A stretch of DNA of 64,000 nt, taken from positions 7,087,001-7,151,000 of the forward strand of contig NZ_CP162553.1 of the NCBI RefSeq assembly GCF_040939785.1, read 5' to 3'. How positions within the stretch are numbered: position 1 is the first letter of the stretch; every line of letters begins with the position of its first letter. A program made the position numbers and the translations under genes. The DNA comes from Bradyrhizobium lupini (lineage in GTDB: Bacteria > Pseudomonadota > Alphaproteobacteria > Rhizobiales > Xanthobacteraceae). Positions 34,856 through 56,442 of this stretch are shown here, piece after piece. The notes below the pieces were generated by a model. It did not search any database and was not told the DNA's origin. It saw only the letters and a program-made list of their open reading frames with translations.

Positions 34856-34932
34856 GCGCTCGTAGCTCAGCTGGATAGAGCATCGGATTTCGATTCCGAG
34901 GGTCGGGAGTTCGAATCTCTCCGAGCGCGCCA
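34856..34932 (+). tRNA. tRNA-Arg (TCG anticodon), integration site of the island
   Basis: 77 nt including encoded CCA. Acceptor GCGCTCG/CGAGCGC, D arm GCTC-AGCTGGATA-GAGC, anticodon arm TCGGA-TTTCGAT-TCCGA with TCG at 34-36, and T arm GGGAG-TTCGAAT-CTCTC. It decodes CGA. The integrase stop is only 17 bp beyond the CCA, the usual geometry for integration into a tRNA 3' end. The gene stays intact. Confidence 0.95.
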
Positions 34933-34948
34933 ACCAACCGACTGTGAA

Positions 34949-36244
34949 TTAAGCGCTTTTCTCGACGGCCTGGTTTTCATTCTGAATGCCATCAGCCCCG
35001 TCATTCTGAACGCTTGTCGCTATTTTGTTCGCGAGGACGTGGGCATAACGCTTTTTGGTAGCCGATAGCATCCGCTTGGCCGAACGCTTGGCATAGCCTT
35101 CATAGCTCTGTTGCGTCTTGTGCGTGGACAGCGCCCGGCCTTGCCCGTCCGTAAGCTCTGCTTCCTCCAGCTCCGTCAACCCGCCGTGCCGGCAGGCATC
35201 CAGGGTGAAGTGGGGCGGAACGCCCTCGATCTTTTTCCGCAGTCGCGTCACGACATGGTTAAGAGAGCTGTAAATCCACGGCTTGGCTGCGCCGTCGCCT
35301 AAGTCGCGCAAGATCATGGGCAGCCCGAGCCTAGGGAGCTTCGCCAGGATTTCCTCAGCATCCGGATAGAACAGCGTCACGTTGCCCTTTTCGTCGGTCT
35401 CTTCCAGCGGGTGGGGCGCGATCGTGCCGGTCTTGTGGTGAGCTACCCGGATGATCGACGGCGCCGAAGGTGCCCGGTAGTCGGCCCATGTGATGTAGCC
35501 CGCAACCACGTTCTCCGGCCGCTGGAGCCATTCAAAGCAGATGACCGCGGTAGCGGCTGCCTCGGGATAACCCGCCTCGATCGCGCCCCAGGCGAAGGCG
35601 TAGGCCTCGTCCCGAGTGACGGCGGATTTCTTGGCTTTCGCCCGCTTCTTTACCGTCACGCCTTCCCATGGATTCGGAACGTCGGCCGGAAACTCTTCCG
35701 GGTAAAGCCGATGGACAACCCGCCACGCCTTGCGACAGAGGCCGATCAGCTTTTCGCCCGTGCGCAGCCGTTGCTGGCCAGCCGCGAGCTTCTTTCCCTT
35801 TGCGGTGATGAACTTGTCATAGAGTTTGTCTGCCGCTCGGGGGCTGATCGTCCTGACGAGACGGCCTCCGACACAATCGCCCGACTTGGTGATGACGTTG
35901 CAAATCTCGTCCATCGCCCATTCGTAATCTGAGCGCGACCGCTCCGCGACCTTCTCCAGATAAGCCTTGCTGATCTTGTATTCGCGAAACAGCCAATCAA
36001 CCGTTCCGTATTTCGGAGCCATGACGCCGCTTACTGGCAGGCCCTTGCGTGCCTGATCCCATTCGTCAAATTGCTCATTGAGCGTCTTGGCCCGCGCCAG
36101 CATCCGCGCGTAATCAGTCCCCAGAGCCTCATTCGAGAGGGGGCACCTCAGTGCGCGATATTTCGTCGGTACGTTGTAGTAATAGGCCGTCGCGCCTTTC
36201 GCCAGCAGCTTGGGGATCACGTGTCGGGGCAGTTCCACCCTCAC
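34949..36244 (-). CDS. int: Tyrosine recombinase integrase
   Basis: 431 residues from GTG 36244, which overlaps the upstream stop (GTGA) with AGAGG at SD distance; the frame is open to 36313. Catalytic residues: Arg in FEWLQRPENV, Lys in HHKTG, the His-x-x-Arg equivalent in DACRHGG, and the Tyr nucleophile in QSYEGYAKR. It catalyses site-specific integration/excision; the adjacent tRNA-Arg(TCG) 3' end is the evident attachment site. Confidence 0.93.
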   Translation of the reverse strand: MRVELPRHVIPKLLAKGATAYYYNVPTKYRALRCPLSNEALGTDYARMLARAKTLNEQFDEWDQARKGLPVSGVMAPKYGTVDWLFREYKISKAYLEKVAERSRSDYEWAMDEICNVITKSGDCVGGRLVRTISPRAADKLYDKFITAKGKKLAAGQQRLRTGEKLIGLCRKAWRVVHRLYPEEFPADVPNPWEGVTVKKRAKAKKSAVTRDEAYAFAWGAIEAGYPEAAATAVICFEWLQRPENVVAGYITWADYRAPSAPSIIRVAHHKTGTIAPHPLEETDEKGNVTLFYPDAEEILAKLPRLGLPMILRDLGDGAAKPWIYSSLNHVVTRLRKKIEGVPPHFTLDACRHGGLTELEEAELTDGQGRALSTHKTQQSYEGYAKRSAKRMLSATKKRYAHVLANKIATSVQNDGADGIQNENQAVEKSA

Positions 36245-36426
36245 AAATCCTCTGCGAGGTCGCCTTGCGCGAGGATTGGAGCTATTGCCCTGTCCAGATC
36301 GTCCCTCAGCCATAACCGTCTACGCCCTTCCGCTACTCGCGGCTGAGGATACTCTTTGCCGACCCGCTTTAGGAAGTCCTCCGCCGTGCGCTCGCCGCAA
36401 TAGCCGGCCGCCAGCTCGGCTGCCAT
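36241..36426 (-). CDS. Excisionase-like small DNA-binding protein
   Basis: 61 residues from ATG 36426 (frame open to TTG 36471). YCGERTAEDFLKRVGKEYPQ, then AEGRRRLWLRDDLDRAIAPI has the helix-turn-helix plus wing pattern of AlpA/Xis-type proteins (a residue run ending in R-L-W-L-R-D-D-L). It overlaps the integrase start, so expression is coupled. The role as directionality factor is inferred from size and position. Confidence 0.75.
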   Translation of the reverse strand: MAAELAAGYCGERTAEDFLKRVGKEYPQPRVAEGRRRLWLRDDLDRAIAPILAQGDLAEDL

Positions 36427-37663: not shown

Positions 37664-38313
37664 TCAGTTCGCGGTGAGCGTGACGAGCGCGACGGCGACG
37701 TTGCGCATGAGGTGCTTAAGCTCGGCATCGTCTGGCGTGAAGAATACTCCGCGGGCCTCGTCCCGGCCGGCGTAGACGAGCAGGTCAATTGCGTCTTGCT
37801 GGCACGTCGGGCGGAAGTTGATGATAGCGAGTTCGGCTTTGGTCCAAGCCTTATGCGCCCGCTTCAAATTGCGCTTTGCTTCGCGAAGCGCCTTCGGGAT
37901 CGCACGCCGGCACGCACGCTCTTGACGATCCCAGTCCGTGAGGCGAGCCGTGAAACACTGCTCCACTTCTGCCCGCACGTCGTCGCTGGTCGCGGCCTCA
38001 AGGTGCCGGGCGCGATCCTTCTCGATGCTATCGCGCGACGTGTAGAACCAGTCATAGGCCTCGATAACCACGTCGTCGTGGCCGTCGCGCATGATACGGC
38101 TGGCGCCGTTCCTACCACCATAGACCTTCGGCTCGCCGGGCTTGGTTCGATTGTAGGCGAGCGAAAGACGGTCCTCGATGGCCCCCACTTTTCGACCTCT
38201 GCAACTGCCGCATTCAGGTTGGCAATTAGGATGCTTAGGTCGCTTTGTGCGGTAGGGCAGGCGAAGTTGATGACGGGCGGTGAAATCTGAGACTGCTTTG
38301 CAATGACCGGCAT
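37664..38313 (-). pseudogene. First gene of leftward early operon, probable frameshift
   Basis: ATG 38313 opens MPVIAKQSQISPPVINFACP and runs to ...AAVAEVEKW. A good protein then continues only in another frame (GAIEDRLSLAYNRTKPGEPK onwards, to 37664). The break is at the GGGGG run (plus-strand C run 38182-38186), where one additional G joins the frames into about 216 residues. The alternative is a separate gene from GTG 38188, lacking the N-terminus. The C-terminal part is helical (LREAKRNLKRAHKAWTKAEL); function unknown. It lies directly downstream of the OL-like operators. Confidence 0.55.
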
Positions 38314-38343
38314 GGAGGGCCTCCCGCTGTTGACGGGATCATG

Positions 38344-38358
38344 TAAAGCAGCTCTTTA
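38344..38358. promoter_or_regulatory. Putative repressor operator (OL-like site 1)
   Basis: TAAAG-CAGCT-CTTTA, a perfect 5-5-5 palindrome, 31 bp upstream of the first leftward early gene. Same consensus as the sites at 39147 and 39194. Confidence 0.7.
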
Positions 38359-38366
38359 GATGTTTG

Positions 38367-38381
38367 TCAAGCATTGCTTTA
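38367..38381. promoter_or_regulatory. Putative repressor operator (OL-like site 2)
   Basis: TCAAG-CATTG-CTTTA, 9 of 10 arm bases match the consensus. Its centre is 23 bp from OL-like site 1. It lies immediately beyond the repressor stop codon (38383). A further isolated TAAAG half-site is at 38396-38400. Confidence 0.6.
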
Positions 38382-38382
38382 G

Positions 38383-39135
38383 TCAATTTAGAAAATAAAG
38401 CGAGCTCAAGCGACCAACGATCCCGTGGCAAATTGGCCAATCCGAACGGGCCACCGTAACGCTTTCTGGTGGATTGAACCTCCGTACGGTGAAGGTTCGC
38501 TCATCTTGGAGAGCTAGCCTTCGCAACAACGCCTGTGCGTCGCCTGAACTCGGGGGTCTCTTCAGGAGCAGCACATCGGCGTCGGACGACATGGACGCGA
38601 GAGGATGCACCAGTACGAGATCGCGTTCCCTGTAAGCCGGCTCCATGTCGTTCCCACTTATCAGTACGCCGTATGAGCCAGAAACGCGTTCCAACAAAGG
38701 GGGGCGACGCACGAATTGTATGGGGCTAGCTTCAATCGTCATTGAGCCTTCGGTGTCAGAAGCCGCGATGTAGATGGGGAAATCTGCTGCTCCGCCCAGG
38801 GGTCCCTTCGTTAATTTTTCGGCTAAAAAGACCCTCTGATATTCCGGGGTTTGCGCGAGGCGGCGGCCTTGCTCCGCCCATTGCTGGTCGAGTTCGGTGT
38901 GAACGGATTTGATCAGATCGGGATCGCCCCCCATCAAATAATCGACGGAGGTGCCCAAAAGGCGAGCCAGGGCGTCCAATTTGCCAATATCGGGTCGGGA
39001 CTCATCGCGCTCCCAGCCCGAGACTGCTTGGGGCGTAACTCTGAGTTCTTCGGCGACTTGCGCTTGCGTCAGCTTGCCGTCGCTGCGGCGACGCGCAGCA
39101 GCGATCCTTTTTCCGAGGGTAAGTCTCTGTTCCAT
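38383..39135 (-). CDS. CI-like prophage repressor (XRE HTH + S24-like domain)
   Basis: 250 residues. HTH at about 20-45: LTQAQVAEELRVTPQAVSGW, then ERDESRPDIGKLDALARLLG. C-terminal S24/LexA-like domain with the segment SGNDMEPAYRERDLVLVHP. The usual catalytic Ser of the G-x-S-M-x-P motif is Asp here, so RecA-stimulated self-cleavage is not expected. Divergent from the Cro-like gene across three operators. It should hold both early promoters off. Confidence 0.9.
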   Translation of the reverse strand: MEQRLTLGKRIAAARRRSDGKLTQAQVAEELRVTPQAVSGWERDESRPDIGKLDALARLLGTSVDYLMGGDPDLIKSVHTELDQQWAEQGRRLAQTPEYQRVFLAEKLTKGPLGGAADFPIYIAASDTEGSMTIEASPIQFVRRPPLLERVSGSYGVLISGNDMEPAYRERDLVLVHPLASMSSDADVLLLKRPPSSGDAQALLRRLALQDERTFTVRRFNPPESVTVARSDWPICHGIVGRLSSLYFLN

Positions 39136-39146
39136 GCCGCCAATAT

Positions 39147-39161
39147 AAAGCTACACTTTAC
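39147..39161. promoter_or_regulatory. Putative repressor operator (OR-like site a)
   Basis: TAAAG-CTACA-CTTTA perfect palindrome, 12 bp upstream of the repressor ATG; best placed to control the repressor's own promoter. Confidence 0.72.
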
Positions 39162-39170
39162 AATTCATAC

Positions 39171-39185
39171 CAAGCAGTGCTTTAC
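39171..39185. promoter_or_regulatory. Putative repressor operator (OR-like site b, degenerate)
   Basis: CCAAG-CAGTG-CTTTA, 8 of 10 arm bases match. Centre 24 bp from site a and 23 bp from site c. Confidence 0.55.
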
Positions 39186-39193
39186 AAGAGGGT

Positions 39194-39208
39194 AAAGGGA
39201 TGCTTTAT
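39194..39208. promoter_or_regulatory. Putative repressor operator (OR-like site c)
   Basis: TAAAG-GGATG-CTTTA perfect palindrome, ending 6 bp before the Cro-like ATG at 39215. It also makes a second inverted pair with the CTTTAC at 39181-39186. Confidence 0.72.
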
Positions 39209-39214
39209 AGGGGC

Positions 39215-39541
39215 ATGGCTCGTAAAACAGATCCAGGACTGCAAGCAGTGTTGAGGGCCGCCCGGAAAGGTGACGCCCTGGCAGCCATCCTGCGCATAAC
39301 AGCGCAGGCCGTTTCCCAGTGGAAGCAGGTTCCCCACAAGCGTGTCTTGACGATCGAGCAGACCGTTGGAGTGCCCCGTCATATTCAACGTCCCGATCTT
39401 TATCCACCGCCTAGTGAACTGTGTATTTCATCGAGCGATAGTACAGCTCCCCGTGATGCTCCACCATCACAGCATCCCACTTCCGAAATAACTCAATCGC
39501 GCGCACACGCTCGAGAGTCAGTTCGGAGGCGTGCACAGTGA
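39215..39541 (+). CDS. Cro/YdaS-like HTH protein
   Basis: From ATG 39215: residues 1-65 (ARKTDPGLQAVLRAARKGDA, then LRITAQAVSQWKQVPHKRVL and a RHIQRPDLYPPPSE end) match the YdaS/Cro family of short prophage HTH proteins that oppose CI. The remaining approx. 42 residues are low-complexity and unlike the family, suggesting the original stop just after PPPSE has been lost or shifted. It would bind the same operators as the repressor. Confidence 0.8.
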   Translation: MARKTDPGLQAVLRAARKGDALAAILRITAQAVSQWKQVPHKRVLTIEQTVGVPRHIQRPDLYPPPSELCISSSDSTAPRDAPPSQHPTSEITQSRAHARESVRRRAQ

Positions 39542-39619: not shown

Positions 39620-39823
39620 ACATTCAACCGAGCAACGGGGGCGGTGCTCGGTTGGCTCACAATCCCGATAGAACGTCGGGGCAGGGCGCACCTCGCCCGA
39701 GTTCGCAACGAAATTCTCCTTTGGACAGCACAGCCCGCCGTGGTCGCCAAACTTTGCCGGGTCGCTCGTCCTCGAATGCGGCGCTGTTAAACGCGCGCTC
39801 TCTTGAAAAGCAGGAGAGCACAA

Positions 39824-40252
39824 ATGACGTCGGAATTTTCCCATAAGGTATCGGAGATGCAGGCTACTTCTCTCGACGAGGCTGCCGACCTTCTTCGAAA
39901 GTTGGCCGGCGAGCGCCAAGCTGGCGAGTCGCTGAAGGCGGTACTTCGCAGAGTACGCCGCAAGCTCGGCAACTGGTCTGAAAATCGTATCCGAGATGTT
40001 TGGCACCGCGATCCCAGGATCAAAGTCCGGGCGGACGAGGTCAATGAGCTGCGAGCGCTCGCAGAACCCAAGAGCAGATCAGAGAGCGTCCATGACTTGG
40101 AAGAGCTTCGAGCTACTGTCGCCCGTCTTGCAAAGTATGAAGCGCTTCTGCAGCGCCTCGACGAAGACCTTTATGGCCCGGACATTTCTGCGGCGAGCGA
40201 TCAGCTTGGCCAAGCGCGCAGCCTTTTGGGAAAAAGCGGCTCTGGACTATGA
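39824..40252 (+). CDS. Prophage early hypothetical protein
   Basis: 142 residues from ATG 39824 with AGGAG at SD distance. Helical: TSLDEAADLLRKLAGERQAG, LKAVLRRVRRKLGNWSENRI (lysine/arginine-rich, possibly nucleic-acid-binding), then a Leu-rich C-terminus. No family recognised. Confidence 0.65.
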   Translation: MTSEFSHKVSEMQATSLDEAADLLRKLAGERQAGESLKAVLRRVRRKLGNWSENRIRDVWHRDPRIKVRADEVNELRALAEPKSRSESVHDLEELRATVARLAKYEALLQRLDEDLYGPDISAASDQLGQARSLLGKSGSGL

Positions 40253-45521: not shown

Positions 45522-46901
45522 ATGGCCGAAGTCGATACATCCTTCTACAAGGACGCTGTTTCTGACAGCCCGCTTAAGGTCGCCGGAGAAGTTGCCGACT
45601 ATCGCAACAAGCTCCTGTCCAACGTCCAGAATCAACAAGCGGTTCAGATCAACGGAGTCCGGCTCGCAACTGAACGTTTCGGCATGATCAACAACGCGGC
45701 TGCCGGCTTGCTGTCTGATCCAGATCTCGGCACGAAGGACGTAACTGGGAAGGTATGGGAGACACTTGGCCGTCTGACGAAGGGCGACGTGATGTCCGCG
45801 CAGCACGCTGTTCAATTCATGCAGGGCTTCCCGGCGGATCCGAGGCTTCAGCCTCAGTATTTGAAGAACGTCCACGCCCAGACGCTCAGTGCTGAGCAGC
45901 GCGGGCGCGCGTACATGGGCGAGGTTCAGGGCGTGCCGACCGGCGGCGGCACCAAGCTAGTCCAGCAGCCTGCCTACGGCGGCTCCCCTCCGCGTGATCT
46001 TGGTTATATTCCAAACACGCTCCAGCCGAGCGAGCGCGTCCCTCAGTCCGACCCGAACCAGCCGAACTATGGTGGCAAGAGCTTCGTAGGCGGCACGGGT
46101 AATCCGCATATCGAGGGCCCCGCCAATCCCATGGGCGACTATTCCACTACGCGTCCGCTGCGGGAGGGCAACGGCGTCCACGCGGCACCGATGAAGTCAC
46201 AAAGCTCGCCGCCAGGTGGGTCTGGTCCTCCTACCGCACGGCCGATAGTCTCTGATTTGCCGCCGGGCGATGTTGAAGCAAAGCGAAAGGCTGGCGAGGG
46301 CTCCGGTGATGAGCTGGTGAATGCGCGCCATCGCAGCATCAACTTCCAGCAGGAGGTCTTCCCGCTTGAACAGGCCATTCCCGCCCTGGAAAAGCTCGGC
46401 ACGAAGGGCTCCGGCCCAGGCACCGAGAGCATCAATCACCTGAAGTCGTTTGTCCTCTCGAATATCCCAGGCGCGGACTTCAAGGGGCTGAAGGACGACG
46501 TCGCGACGTACGACAAGGCAAAGAAGTACCTCACCGACTTCGTCAATCAGAACGGCAACAGCGGCACCAATGACAAATTGGCAGCCGCGTTCGCCGGCAA
46601 TCCGTCCGTCAACATCAGCAACGCTGCCGCGGTGGACGTCGCCAAATCAGCACTAGCCTTGCGTCGCATGAAGCAGGCCCAGCTCGCGGCCTTCGAGCAA
46701 TCGGGGCTGCCCGAGAGCGAGTTCGGCAAATTTGCCTCGAAGTGGAACGTCACCGCTGATCCTCGCGCCTACGGCTTCGACATGATGAGTGCAGCTCAGC
46801 GGAAATCTATTCTGGATGGGCTGCCCAAGGGCAAGCGCGAACTCTTCATGCTCAATGTGCAGGACGCGGCCGAGCAGGGCCTGATTAAGGCGCCACGCTG
46901 A
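45522..46901 (+). CDS. Phage virion-type hypothetical protein
   Basis: 459 residues: helical N-terminus (LKVAGEVADYRNKLLSNVQN, VMSAQHAVQFMQGFPADPRL), a long Pro/Gly/Asn-rich linker (about 140-245), and a helical C-terminus. Such architecture occurs in virion/ejection proteins encoded beside tail genes of podovirus-like phages. Assignment by position and composition only. Its TGA overlaps the next ATG. Confidence 0.55.
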   Translation: MAEVDTSFYKDAVSDSPLKVAGEVADYRNKLLSNVQNQQAVQINGVRLATERFGMINNAAAGLLSDPDLGTKDVTGKVWETLGRLTKGDVMSAQHAVQFMQGFPADPRLQPQYLKNVHAQTLSAEQRGRAYMGEVQGVPTGGGTKLVQQPAYGGSPPRDLGYIPNTLQPSERVPQSDPNQPNYGGKSFVGGTGNPHIEGPANPMGDYSTTRPLREGNGVHAAPMKSQSSPPGGSGPPTARPIVSDLPPGDVEAKRKAGEGSGDELVNARHRSINFQQEVFPLEQAIPALEKLGTKGSGPGTESINHLKSFVLSNIPGADFKGLKDDVATYDKAKKYLTDFVNQNGNSGTNDKLAAAFAGNPSVNISNAAAVDVAKSALALRRMKQAQLAAFEQSGLPESEFGKFASKWNVTADPRAYGFDMMSAAQRKSILDGLPKGKRELFMLNVQDAAEQGLIKAPR

Positions 46902-48628
46902 TGCCGATGGACGAAAAAGCATTTCACGGCATTTGGGGTACGGAAGGCGCGAAAGCACCGGCGGATGAAACCGGCACGCGCGTTCTGGACCCCAAGGCCT
47001 TTGAGAGCCAGTGGCTAGTCGAGCCCAAGAAGTCCGCCGGTGACGAGCCGGTAGACATCGGCCAGGGTCGCGCAGAGGGCGTACAGTTCTTGCGTGGCGT
47101 TCCGGTAGCCGGAGCCTATGCCGACAAAGCCGCTGCGGCCCTAAATGCCGCAGCTTCCCCGTTTATCTCGACACCGGGCATGTCCAACGCGCCGACGTTC
47201 TCCGAGCGAATGACGGAGAACGAACGGCGGATCAAGATCGGCGCCGATAAGTATGCTGAGGACCATCCTGTTGCTGCCGGAGTTGAACAGTTTGCAGGCG
47301 GTACGGCGGCAATGGCGCCCCTCGCCGCCACCGCAGCAGGTGCGCGTGCTCTAGGGCTTACCGGACAGCTGTGGCAGCGTGCTGTTACAGGCGGTGCTAC
47401 CGGCGCCGGTCTTAGCGGCGCAGATGCTCTGGCAAGAAGCGGCGGAGATATCAAAGAAGCCGGCAAAGGCGCGTCAATTGGCGCCGGAGTCGGCGTCTTG
47501 TCACCCTTCGTCGCGCGAGTAATCGGCGCCGGGGTGAACAAGGTAATGGCGCCGGCAGCCGACCGCGCCACAAACTATCTGCTCCAGCGCGCAGAAGATC
47601 TTGGCATTCCGATCCGGCCCTCGCAGTCGAGCACATCGCCGTTCATCAACAAGATGGACCAGATGGTGCCCAAGATTCCAGGCTCGGGGATGGGCGCGGC
47701 AATCGATGAGCAACGCACGGGATTCAACCGGGCGGTGGCGCGGACCTTCGGTGGCGACGCTACTCGCATCACCCCAGACGTGATGGCAGCGGCCAAGAAG
47801 CGCTTGGGTCAGGAGTTCGATGCGGTCGAGAAAGGCACGGTTGTTCGGTTTGACCGGCCATTGGCAGGCAAGCTCAGTGGCATCCTTAGCGATGCAAGCA
47901 GCGTCCTTGAGCCGGACCAGATCGCACCGATCGCGAAGCGCGTGACGGAAATCTCCAATCTCGTGAAGAACGGCGAGTTTGACGGCCGCTCGTTCAACAA
48001 CATGCTCAAGAAGGATGCCCCTCTCAGCCGGCTTCAGAAGAGCACAGATCCGAACGTAAAGTTCTATGCGGGGCAGATCAGGACGGCGCTCCAGGACGCC
48101 TTGGAGCGGTCGGCACCAGCCGACCTGGCGCAGCGGTACAATCTTGCACGCTACCAGTATCGCAACATGAAGACCATCGAGCCTCTGGCGGAGAAGGCTG
48201 CCACAGGTGACATCTCCCCGACGCTGCTGTTGAACGAGGTACGAAAGGCGAATCCGAATTTCGCCTATGGCAGCGGCGGGGACATCGCAGATATCGCCCA
48301 GATCGGGCAGCGCTTCATGAAGCAGCCGCCAGACTCGGGCACTCCACTCGGGACCAAGGTGCTTGATACCTTCGTGCACGGAGCACCCGCCTTGGCGGGC
48401 GCGGCATTGGGTGGGGGCGCCGCATACGGTGGCGGCTTCGATCCTATGACGGACGTCGGTCTTGGACTTGGTGGCTTGATGGCAACCGCCGCGATGGCGC
48501 GCGGCGCCGGCCGCGTGATGCTTCGCCCGCAAATGATTGAGAACGCACTGACGCGGTCCCAGGTGGCTGCACCGGCAGCCGCAAACCGACTGATGCAAAT
48601 CAATCGGCCGGAGGAGCAGCGTCAATAA
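46901..48628 (+). CDS. Phage internal virion/ejection-type protein
   Basis: 575 residues. Gly/Ala-rich hydrophobic stretches (AAMAPLAATAAGARALGLTG and GASIGAGVGVLSPFVARVIG) alternate with helical regions; another Gly/Ala-rich segment lies near the C-terminus (ALAGAALGGGAAYGGG). This pattern fits proteins injected with phage DNA that interact with membranes. No enzymatic motif seen. Follows the previous gene with a 1-bp overlap. Confidence 0.55.
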   Translation: MPMDEKAFHGIWGTEGAKAPADETGTRVLDPKAFESQWLVEPKKSAGDEPVDIGQGRAEGVQFLRGVPVAGAYADKAAAALNAAASPFISTPGMSNAPTFSERMTENERRIKIGADKYAEDHPVAAGVEQFAGGTAAMAPLAATAAGARALGLTGQLWQRAVTGGATGAGLSGADALARSGGDIKEAGKGASIGAGVGVLSPFVARVIGAGVNKVMAPAADRATNYLLQRAEDLGIPIRPSQSSTSPFINKMDQMVPKIPGSGMGAAIDEQRTGFNRAVARTFGGDATRITPDVMAAAKKRLGQEFDAVEKGTVVRFDRPLAGKLSGILSDASSVLEPDQIAPIAKRVTEISNLVKNGEFDGRSFNNMLKKDAPLSRLQKSTDPNVKFYAGQIRTALQDALERSAPADLAQRYNLARYQYRNMKTIEPLAEKAATGDISPTLLLNEVRKANPNFAYGSGGDIADIAQIGQRFMKQPPDSGTPLGTKVLDTFVHGAPALAGAALGGGAAYGGGFDPMTDVGLGLGGLMATAAMARGAGRVMLRPQMIENALTRSQVAAPAAANRLMQINRPEEQRQ

Positions 48629-54948: not shown

Positions 54949-56442
54949 TTACGCCCAAAGACCCTGACGTTCGCTGATCCTCTCGATCAGCGGCACGCTT
55001 CCATCCCGGAATGCCGGCGCGTCGAGCGAGATGAAGCGACGATCAACGGCGTCCTCTTTCCATGCAGCCTTGACGAACATCTTCGCGATCCGACCCGCGT
55101 CTTCCGGCGTAACCTCCTTTAGCCACAGCGCCGCAGCGAGCGAACTAACCGCGGGCCTGCGGATGTGGGGCGGCAGGTTGCGTGGGATGACCTGATCGGC
55201 GAGCGTAAACAGCGGATCAGCCGGCGCCGCGATTATGCCCGTTAATGTCGGCTCCCGCAGATTCGAGGAGCGAATGATAGCTGGTCGCGGCACTATAAGG
55301 CGCGGCTGCTGCGAGTTACGGTCGATCATCTCCGCTATGTCGTGGTGGAGACGACGGATGGCCCTGATCTGGCGAAAGTCGCAAACGAACGCCGCCGTAT
55401 GCCGATCTGTCAAGACGGTGACCCGCGTGCCGGCAATCACAGCCGCGCGCACCTTCTCGACCAATTCCTGCTTAGGTGTATGAGTCGGGTTCCTCGATCG
55501 GAGGCCGACGCACGTCAAGCACTGCCGATGCCAGCGACCATCGTTCTGCAAGTAGCTCTTGCCATGGATCGCATAGGAATGCCCTTGTGCGCAGAAATCC
55601 CGTCCTCCGCGGTGGCCCTTTTTCTTATCGGCCAGTTTGCGATTGCGCTGGACCAGAGCAGCAGCCCAAGCACCCCAATTTCGATACCTTTCGCAGTGCT
55701 TTTCAAATTTGTTTGCAGATACGATGGCCTTGGTGCCTTTGACGTAGCCAGTCAGCCATCGTTTGCTCATCCCTTTTTCGAGAACTGACATACACGCGAC
55801 GGCCTGCTCGGGCCTCATGTATTCCTCCTGATGTGGGATAGCGGCGCGCGCGTTAATCTTGTCGAGGCATTCAGCCAACGCGGCACAGTCGGCCGGATGA
55901 GGACAATTTCTACAGGTATCAATAGCGGCGCAGTCAGGAATGCTGAAATTCCGCGCCTTTAATTCGGGGAATGTCGGGAGGTCATCTTCTGTAACGTTCG
56001 TCGGGCGCGCTGGAAGATTGGGGTTAGAGCGTCCCTTCCTCTTGTCTGCAAGCTTGCGGTTGCACGCAGCAAGACCCAGCGCCTTTGCGCCCCACTCCGG
56101 ATACAGCTCGCAGTGCTTATCGAACGCCTTCTTGGAGCAGATCGTCGTTCCACCACCACCGACGATTGTACGTAGTGTCTCGCTAGCCTCCAGGCGCGCC
56201 ATGAAGGACGCGGCCTCGGTCGGGTTCATCGTGAACACTGCCCCGGCGATCAGCTTGGAAAGGCACGACTCGCAGACTCGCGGGGCCTTCTTGCCGGTTC
56301 GGAAGCGTGACAGCGGCAAGTTGTGCTCACATCGACGACACACCTTCATCATGACCGTCTCCATTTGTTGGACAGTAAGCGCGGGATGCGCGTCGCGCAG
56401 CCAGATCCTGAATCGCGGCGCCGCGTGGACGCGCTCAGCCAT
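54949..56442 (-). CDS. Large zinc-motif protein with internal duplication and sigma-like C-terminus
   Basis: 497 residues. Residues 35-60: CRRCEHNLPLSRFRTGKKAP followed by C-E-S-C, a zinc knuckle. Two related modules: FDKHCELYPEWGAKALGLAA (about 110) with NRKLADKRKG, and FEKHCERYRNWGAWAAALVQ (about 250) with NRKLADKKKG. Then a Cys/His region (FCAQGHSYAIHGK, RQCLTCVG). The last about 90 residues (LADQVIPRNLPPHIRRPAVS, RRFISLDAPAFRDGSVPLIE) recall the S-L-D-x-P-x-x-x-D-G-S pattern of sigma-factor linkers. Possibly a phage-type transcription factor; inference only. Confidence 0.6.
   Translation of the reverse strand: MAERVHAAPRFRIWLRDAHPALTVQQMETVMMKVCRRCEHNLPLSRFRTGKKAPRVCESCLSKLIAGAVFTMNPTEAASFMARLEASETLRTIVGGGGTTICSKKAFDKHCELYPEWGAKALGLAACNRKLADKRKGRSNPNLPARPTNVTEDDLPTFPELKARNFSIPDCAAIDTCRNCPHPADCAALAECLDKINARAAIPHQEEYMRPEQAVACMSVLEKGMSKRWLTGYVKGTKAIVSANKFEKHCERYRNWGAWAAALVQRNRKLADKKKGHRGGRDFCAQGHSYAIHGKSYLQNDGRWHRQCLTCVGLRSRNPTHTPKQELVEKVRAAVIAGTRVTVLTDRHTAAFVCDFRQIRAIRRLHHDIAEMIDRNSQQPRLIVPRPAIIRSSNLREPTLTGIIAAPADPLFTLADQVIPRNLPPHIRRPAVSSLAAALWLKEVTPEDAGRIAKMFVKAAWKEDAVDRRFISLDAPAFRDGSVPLIERISERQGLWA

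Follow-up and report, generated by a model that had tools for sequence, protein, structure and literature searches.

A probable lambda-type lysogeny control region with TNAAG-N5-CTTNA operators in a Bradyrhizobium lupini prophage

A 64,000-nucleotide stretch of Bradyrhizobium lupini DNA (contig NZ_CP162553.1, positions 7,087,001 to 7,151,000; hereafter the window) very probably harbours a lysogeny switch of the lambda type, represented by its OR/OL control region. Three putative operator sites separate the divergently oriented repressor and cro-like genes, and a second cluster of two sites lies beyond the repressor gene. As a kind of object a lambda-type switch is ordinary; its putative operator word is unusual, widely shared and, in most groups, doubles as predicted promoter sequence. 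The initial annotation of this DNA had proposed a lambda-like operator system, a reading that is supported by the genome-wide specificity of the motif, by the independent reappearance of three-plus-two arrays at other cI/cro pairs and by the fit of promoter-like sequences to the sites.

Features of the locus (window coordinates):
34856..34932, + strand: tRNA-Arg (TCG), probable attachment site, adjoining the integrase
34949..36313, - strand: integrase (PHROG 1, E 1.6e-10), probable left prophage end
37664..38313, - strand: first leftward-operon gene; compared with an intact homologue (G017 / L129), its frame is interrupted near 38185-38191
38343..38371, - strand: predicted PL, CTTGAC-N17-CTTTAC, 10/12 to CTTGAC-N17-CTATAT; -35 over the left half of OLb, -10 over the left half of OLa
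38344..38358, no strand: OLa, perfect operator TAAAGCAGCTCTTTA, closest site to the leftward operon
38367..38381, no strand: OLb, operator TCAAGCATTGCTTTA, 9/10, ending 1 base short of the repressor stop codon region (38383)
38383..39135, - strand: cI-like repressor, 250 aa, HTH_3 plus an S24-like C-terminal domain (below the Pfam gathering score)
39145..39174, - strand: predicted PRM, CTTGGT-N18-CTTTAT, with a poor -35 (left half of O2) and an 18-bp spacer
39146..39160, no strand: O1, perfect operator TAAAGCTACACTTTA, repressor-proximal
39170..39184, no strand: O2, middle operator CCAAGCAGTGCTTTA, 8/10
39180..39208, + strand: predicted PR, CTTTAC-N17-CTTTAT, 10/12; -35 in O2, -10 in O3
39193..39207, no strand: O3, perfect operator TAAAGGGATGCTTTA, cro-proximal
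39215..39541, + strand: cro-like gene, HTH of YdaS/P22_Cro type; the start at 39215 fits the relatives, with an alternative in-frame ATG at 39200
39803..40252, + strand: later rightward-operon gene, homologous to the one that follows cro in G124 (53% over 113 aa)

Operator sites and regulator genes

All five TAAAG-N5-CTTTA sites that had been described at the two ends of the repressor gene were found, three of them perfect and the others matching at 9/10 and 8/10 positions. The coordinates first given were correct for the left pair and one base too high for the trio, and the reported spacings of 23 bp (pair) and 24 and 23 bp (trio) agree with the start-to-start distances. The description of the sites as lying on one helical side is loose, since 23–24 bp correspond to 2.2–2.3 turns at 10.5 bp/turn. 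The central spacer is 5 bp at all five sites. As had been proposed, the trio lies between divergent cI-like and cro-like genes, which encode a P22 c2-like HTH repressor leftward and a YdaS/P22-Cro-like Cro rightward, and the pair lies upstream of the leftward early gene, between the repressor stop codon and the ATG at 38313.

A whole-genome search found the perfect motif three times in 7,826,318 bases, all at the switch, and one-mismatch copies at 23 further places, one of those at the switch. Taken singly, sites with up to two mismatches are common in the window (11 versus 5.3 expected; 6 of 100 shuffles reach 11), and the significance is therefore carried by the arrangement of the sites and not by single sites. 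When an array was defined as sites 22–25 bp apart with up to two mismatches each, two arrays (2 + 3 sites) were observed in the window, versus none in 200 dinucleotide shuffles of it. The interval 38301-39230 holds five sites, whereas 2000 shuffles averaged 0.28 and never gave more than 4.

The nearest solved relative of the repressor HTH by sequence is P22 c2 (phmmer, 1adr, E 1.2e-6). An AlphaFold2 model of the repressor, of only moderate quality (mean pLDDT 71.8, 8-sequence alignment), matched P22 c2 N-domains with a TM-score of up to 0.92 by target (3jxb_D), and the match of a DicA model to the window repressor HTH fell below the cut-off. The repressor recognition helix, TPQAVSGW, departs from that of P22 c2 at Q in the sequence alignment. 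The Cro-like protein scored 28.5 against YdaS_toxin (gathering 30 bits) and 27.5 against P22_Cro (gathering 30.2), both just below threshold, and gave no NCBIfam match. A recognition helix of the form QA[VI]xxW is present in both window proteins.

Recurrence of the operator array

The strict pair pattern, searched in 265 genomes of the genus, matched only the window genome and G124, twice each, and the reversed control gave zero matches. An HTH-only protein search of the same 265 genomes (E up to 1e-10) returned the same two. Their exact agreement partly reflects the thresholds, because both strict searches missed G192, whose diverged version of the switch was found through a search for the leftward gene. 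Among 391 genomes sampled from the family, the window genome alone matched the pair pattern. The window and G124 cro products match at 57% over 99 aa, and the repressors match in the HTH part only (49% over 77 aa).

In viral contigs the pair pattern matched 71 stretches, 48 of them GC-rich (GC at least 0.46) and 23 AT-rich. With the helix pattern QA[VI]xxW, which was chosen after the first loci had been seen, an away-facing HTH gene was found within 200 bp of the array in 38 of the 48 GC-rich stretches and was absent from the remaining 10; a divergent pair of such genes was present in 26, and 35 carried two or more arrays. The corresponding figures for the AT-rich stretches are 0/23 for the helix and 4/23 for two or more arrays. 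The reversed decoy pattern matched 27 stretches, none with the helix and one with two arrays, although only 3 of the 27 are GC-rich, which makes the decoy a weak control for GC-rich DNA.

Loci were also picked solely for a relative of the window Cro. A trio was found in 9 of these 11, and a leftward pair in 7 of those 9; L124 has no array, and the pair is absent from the stretch examined of L119. At L117 (2809-2950) there are a trio and cro but no recognisable repressor at the cI position, and a different leftward ORF adjoins; a pair 36 bp from this trio, at spacing 24, was not counted as PL. In six named phage regions with related proteins, no array was found in five, and the sixth, from Klebsiella phage ST16-OXA48phi5.3, shows a pair of weak sites, spaced 24 bp, in the interval from cro to cI. 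The collection contains some redundancy: L079 and L021 are parts of one contig, three contigs occur under two names each (L115/L039, L116/L052 and L123/L018), and the L039/L115 switch is also that of G124, so that these loci are not independent. Because the loci are mutually related, p-values overstate significance.

These results describe an operator class of GC-rich temperate phages that is defined by sequence and linked to one type of recognition helix (QA[VI]xxW), shared by repressor and Cro. Through this link, DNA sequence might allow uncultured prophages to be assigned to immunity groups.

Protein searches of the viral contigs with the window repressor and with its nearest relative, P0002, confirmed no relatives, and a scan of genome contigs gave one weak locus, without the motif. 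Separately, the genus relatives L002 and L003 (in G091 and G239) have only the C-terminal part of the repressor in common with the window (43% over residues 112-242), a case of domain swapping. L003 retains both Ser and Lys of the autocleavage dyad, and a matching operator array was not found in the L002 or L003 stretch.

Promoter sequences within the half-sites

The window operators overlap the predicted PR, PL and PRM. The sigma-70 consensus used for Sinorhizobium meliloti is CTTGAC-N17-CTATAT, as described by PMC2873474. With up to two mismatches it occurs at three places in the window, and two of these are exactly the predicted PL and PR; the total of three is itself not unusual (11 of 100 shuffles). 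A generic E. coli sigma-70 scan detected neither PL nor PR, and a terminator scan likewise gave nothing useful at the locus. The -10 hexamers are poor by the E. coli standard (TTTATA, and TTGAGT in some relatives).

The geometry was examined in 12 trios (window, L115-L123, L021 and L023), with the outward half-sites taken as promoter hexamers. The PRM spacer is 18 bp in all 12 and the PR spacer is 17 bp in 10, with 18 bp in L119 and L023; the PL spacer is 17 bp in all 10 pairs counted. In a second set of 21 loci, OR spacing is 23 bp in 15, 24 bp in 5 and 22 bp in 1, and OL spacing is 23 bp in 20 and 24 bp in 1. The repressor-gene ATG follows the O1 hexamer by 8 nt in 9/12 loci (exceptions L117, L118 and L023), and the cro ATG follows the O3 hexamer by 5–8 nt in 11/12 (exception L118). 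In several loci, including the window, an alternative in-frame start precedes the hexamer end by ~10 nt. With translation from the downstream starts, the cI mRNA, and probably the cro mRNA, are predicted to be leaderless or nearly so.

Among the 112 half-sites of 56 sites (12 trios and 10 pairs), a set picked by consensus similarity, the core AAG is invariant (112/112); at position 2, A occurs 68 times, C 37 times and G 7 times. Within the 12 trios the middle site is on average the poorest match, with mean mismatches of 0.25, 1.83 and 0.92 for O1, O2 and O3. Read outward, C at position 2 gives CTTGA and A gives CTTTA. CTTGA, with G at the variable position, occupies 18/22 of the PR and PL -35 halves in the 56-site set, versus 9/34 of the -10 halves and 8/44 of the non-promoter halves; the PRM -35 half is CTTGA in 0/12.

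The viral search pattern frees only one half-site. This biases the OL base counts of loci selected by the pattern, and the 42/42 obtained from the second set is not to be taken at face value. Less biased figures come from three sources. An OR-only count in the second set, with L034 and L037 dropped since their ORs themselves match the search pattern, gave CTTGA in 19/19 PR -35 halves, 1/19 -10 halves and 5/38 other halves; among 16 representatives from a crude clustering at 80%, the values are 16/16 at -35 and 5/32 in other halves. The Cro-selected loci alone gave 14/16 at -35 versus 5/32. Thirteen GC-rich loci had been omitted from the second set, excluded by the helix pattern or by one-sidedness, and the six pattern-free ORs among them have CTTGA in 6/6 -35 halves, 2/6 -10 halves and 2/12 other halves.

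The other seven of the 13 (L014, L031, L042, L057, L060, L065 and L066) contradict the rule: they have CTTTA or CTTTT at -35 and 24-bp spacing, and their ORs match the search pattern. The window is itself an exception at PR, where the -35 half is CTTTA. The CTTGA rule at -35 thus holds for most groups and not for all. The seven loci encode repressors with NPQA[VI]TGW-type helices and form a second version of the operator class.

A tentative generalisation, slightly less likely than not to hold, is that TNAAG-N5-CTTNA represents a widespread operator class in which the short half-site word would at once be read as -35 and as -10. Its promoter role would be tuned by one tolerated base (CTTGA or CTTTA), and the spacing would be dictated by RNA polymerase (6+17 or 6+18 bp) and not by repressor cooperativity. 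The C-terminal module of the repressor would thereby be freed, and the induction signal would become a plug-in part; active S24 domains, dead S24 domains and no such domain at all would then be found on one operator grammar.

The classical statement for lambda attributes the spacing to repressors that cooperate in pairs through their C-terminal domains. Applied here, with the fit to promoter hexamers as a secondary matter, this explanation seems somewhat unlikely, though credible. The 23/24-bp period resembles that of lambda OR, the arrays of the seven contradicting loci stay regular at 24 bp with no CTTGA in the -35 half, and the C-terminal part of the repressor model (the model of mean pLDDT 71.8) weakly matches lambda and 186 repressor chains, with several unrelated enzymes also among the weak matches. 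Against it, the common spacings are exactly 6+17 and 6+18, the -35 halves of most groups carry the -35-like base, and L119-L123 retain trios of 24/23 or 24/24 with repressors of 104-106 aa that consist of an HTH and little else. Such repressors are too short for an S24-type domain, which argues for a period fixed by the promoter rather than through cooperation between such domains, although a repressor made of the HTH alone might cooperate by some other route. An old question, whether operators of the lambda kind are spaced for cooperative repressor binding or for the geometry of their promoters, becomes testable, since there are natural relatives in which the spacing persists and the repressor has no room for the usual cooperativity domain.

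Regulators, related switches and the state of the prophage

In the mechanism that we propose from this layout, the cI-like repressor and the Cro-like protein would compete for the 15-bp TNAAG-N5-CTTNA palindromes. The outward half-sites of sites 23 bp apart would supply a -35 (CTTGAC/CTTTAC) and a -10 (CTTTAT/CTTTAC) separated by 17 bp, giving putative PR from O2/O3 and PL from OLb/OLa. On the repressor side, the 24-bp spacing and the poor -35 half would make PRM weak and probably dependent on activation by repressor at O2. In the lysogenic state, cro and the leftward operon would be closed to RNA polymerase by repressor occupying, in a presumed order, O2/O3 and OLa/OLb. A fall in repressor would then allow Cro to be made, and Cro would shut PRM.

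The lambda switch has this OR/OL layout and operator-promoter overlap, with three OL sites. The window shares with it the divergent cI/cro genes, three operators between them, a second cluster beyond cI at PL, the 23–24 bp spacing and, in sequence geometry, the overlap of operators with PR, PL and PRM. It differs in its 15-bp TNAAG-N5-CTTNA operator, in having only two detected OL sites, in a YdaS/P22-Cro-like Cro whose gene is also predicted to be leaderless, and in a repressor without the Ser-Lys dyad. The P22 operator has a half-site resembling TNAAG, with half-sites 4 bp apart. Compared with the P22 immC system (c2/Cro), the window repressor HTH is closest to c2 by sequence with a good fold match and Cro is weakly P22_Cro-like, but the central spacer is 5 bp and not 4. 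One Cro-selected locus, L125, has TNAAG-N4-CTTNA sites at 2917 and 2940 (2917-2953), 23 bp apart and upstream of its Cro relative; this 4-bp-spacer version, which resembles the P22 spacing, might show how the spacer length changed.

Leaderless regulator mRNAs have been described for lambda cI (PMC8630535) and, by RACE, for both cI and cro of PY54 (PMC4488713). Among the telomere phages PY54, N15 and phiKO2 (CI/CB, Cro), PY54 thus resembles the prediction for the window, but its Cro is described as binding a single 16-bp OR3, the sole operator reported there (PMC4488713), versus five sites in the window. The PaaR2/YdaS switch of CP-933P in E. coli O157:H7 likewise places a YdaS-type Cro opposite a CI-like regulator, with palindromes at equal intervals across PRM and PR, a PL as well and a leaderless regulator gene (PMC8630535). 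It differs in the length and consensus of its palindromes (18 bp, GTTTAGTAA), in having four of them in the intergenic region and in a downstream toxin-antitoxin locus (PMC8630535). No report of a TAAAG-N5-CTTTA operator was found in the open-licence literature, searched mostly at title and abstract level by motif letters and for Bradyrhizobium switches, P22 operators, leaderless cro, Xanthomonas phages, non-cleavable repressors, phage 16-3 and operator half-sites; we do not claim its absence from print.

These comparisons bear on which protein binds. It is conceivable, if unlikely, that only Cro or only the repressor recognises the sites and that the other protein uses a different, overlapping signal. 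The single operator bound by PY54 Cro (PMC4488713) offers a precedent, as do the two overlapping repeat types described for CP-933P, where such an arrangement is discussed for PaaR2/YdaS (PMC8630535), and the window repressor and Cro match different HTH families. Competition of both proteins for the same sites is favoured by the QA[VI]xxW helix that they have in common and by the divergent pairs of such genes at 26 of the 48 GC-rich loci. Furthermore, the pair beyond cI is not beside cro, and autoregulation of cro alone would not explain it.

The Ser-Lys autocleavage dyad of the repressor is replaced, Ser by Asp and Lys by Arg: the window repressor has GNDMEP and LLRRL where relatives with an intact dyad (P0003, P0004, P0005 and L021) have G-x-S-M and a lysine. 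P0002, 47% identical in the alignment, has EEM and LLRRL at these positions, and P0006 keeps the Ser with AKL at the lysine position. By alignment, the dyad is lost in the lineage of the window and P0002. Its absence makes lambda-style SOS induction unlikely, and RecA-driven induction of this prophage is unlikely to have been kept. A lambda-like switch with a repressor that lacks the bond cleaved in the SOS response has been described in the cryptic prophage Qin (DicA/DicC; PMC10448788). DicA differs in its length of 135 aa and in operators described as similar to those of lambda PR/PL, whereas the window repressor keeps a dyad-less S24-like domain.

The initial annotation saw a seemingly complete switch in an otherwise partial prophage. 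The operators, promoter geometry, repressor and Cro bear out the first description, while the missing dyad and the broken frame of the first leftward gene do not. A partial prophage agrees with the integrase beside tRNA-Arg, a single DNA-ejection protein match, weak matches to the terminase small subunit and the lack of a second attachment site (no exact repeat of at least 14 bases of 34880-34960 within the window), in a scan that covered 20 ORFs. It is quite unlikely that the prophage has decayed to the point where the switch is a silent relic, its sites persisting without regulating anything. The broken leftward gene, the repressor without a dyad and the few structural-gene matches among the 20 ORFs scanned would fit a relic, but the reading frames of repressor and Cro are open, all five sites and the three promoter geometries are intact, and the dyad loss is common to P0002 and thus not a decay of the window copy alone. 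A PHROG DNA-ejection protein family match at 46901-48628 (+ strand; E 2.9e-43) indicates that some virion genes remain.

The idea that some unrelated host regulator uses these sites as operators, or that they are repeats arising by chance, draws on the roughly twofold excess of loose single sites in the window and is extremely improbable, since chance repeats are ruled out by the genome-wide rarity and the absence of arrays from 200 shuffles, a host-regulator site by the lack of any further perfect copy in the genome, and both are at odds with the recurrence beside cI/cro pairs and the clean decoy.

Homologues of the first leftward gene are present in 8 of 265 genus genomes, the window genome included. 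Upstream of the copies viewed, the window operator class was found in G192, and different repeats, read by eye, in G017, G043, G211, G186 and G008. A common leftward gene (window and L129-L134) under differing upstream repeats suggests exchange of immunity modules around a shared operon. Elsewhere in the window, a weakly HNH-like protein (54949-56442, - strand) matches in its C-terminal part a G124 gene (L127, about 1203-1586; 32% over 137 aa). The G124 counterpart lies in the leftward operon just beyond OL, and the window version lies ~17 kb to the right of OL.
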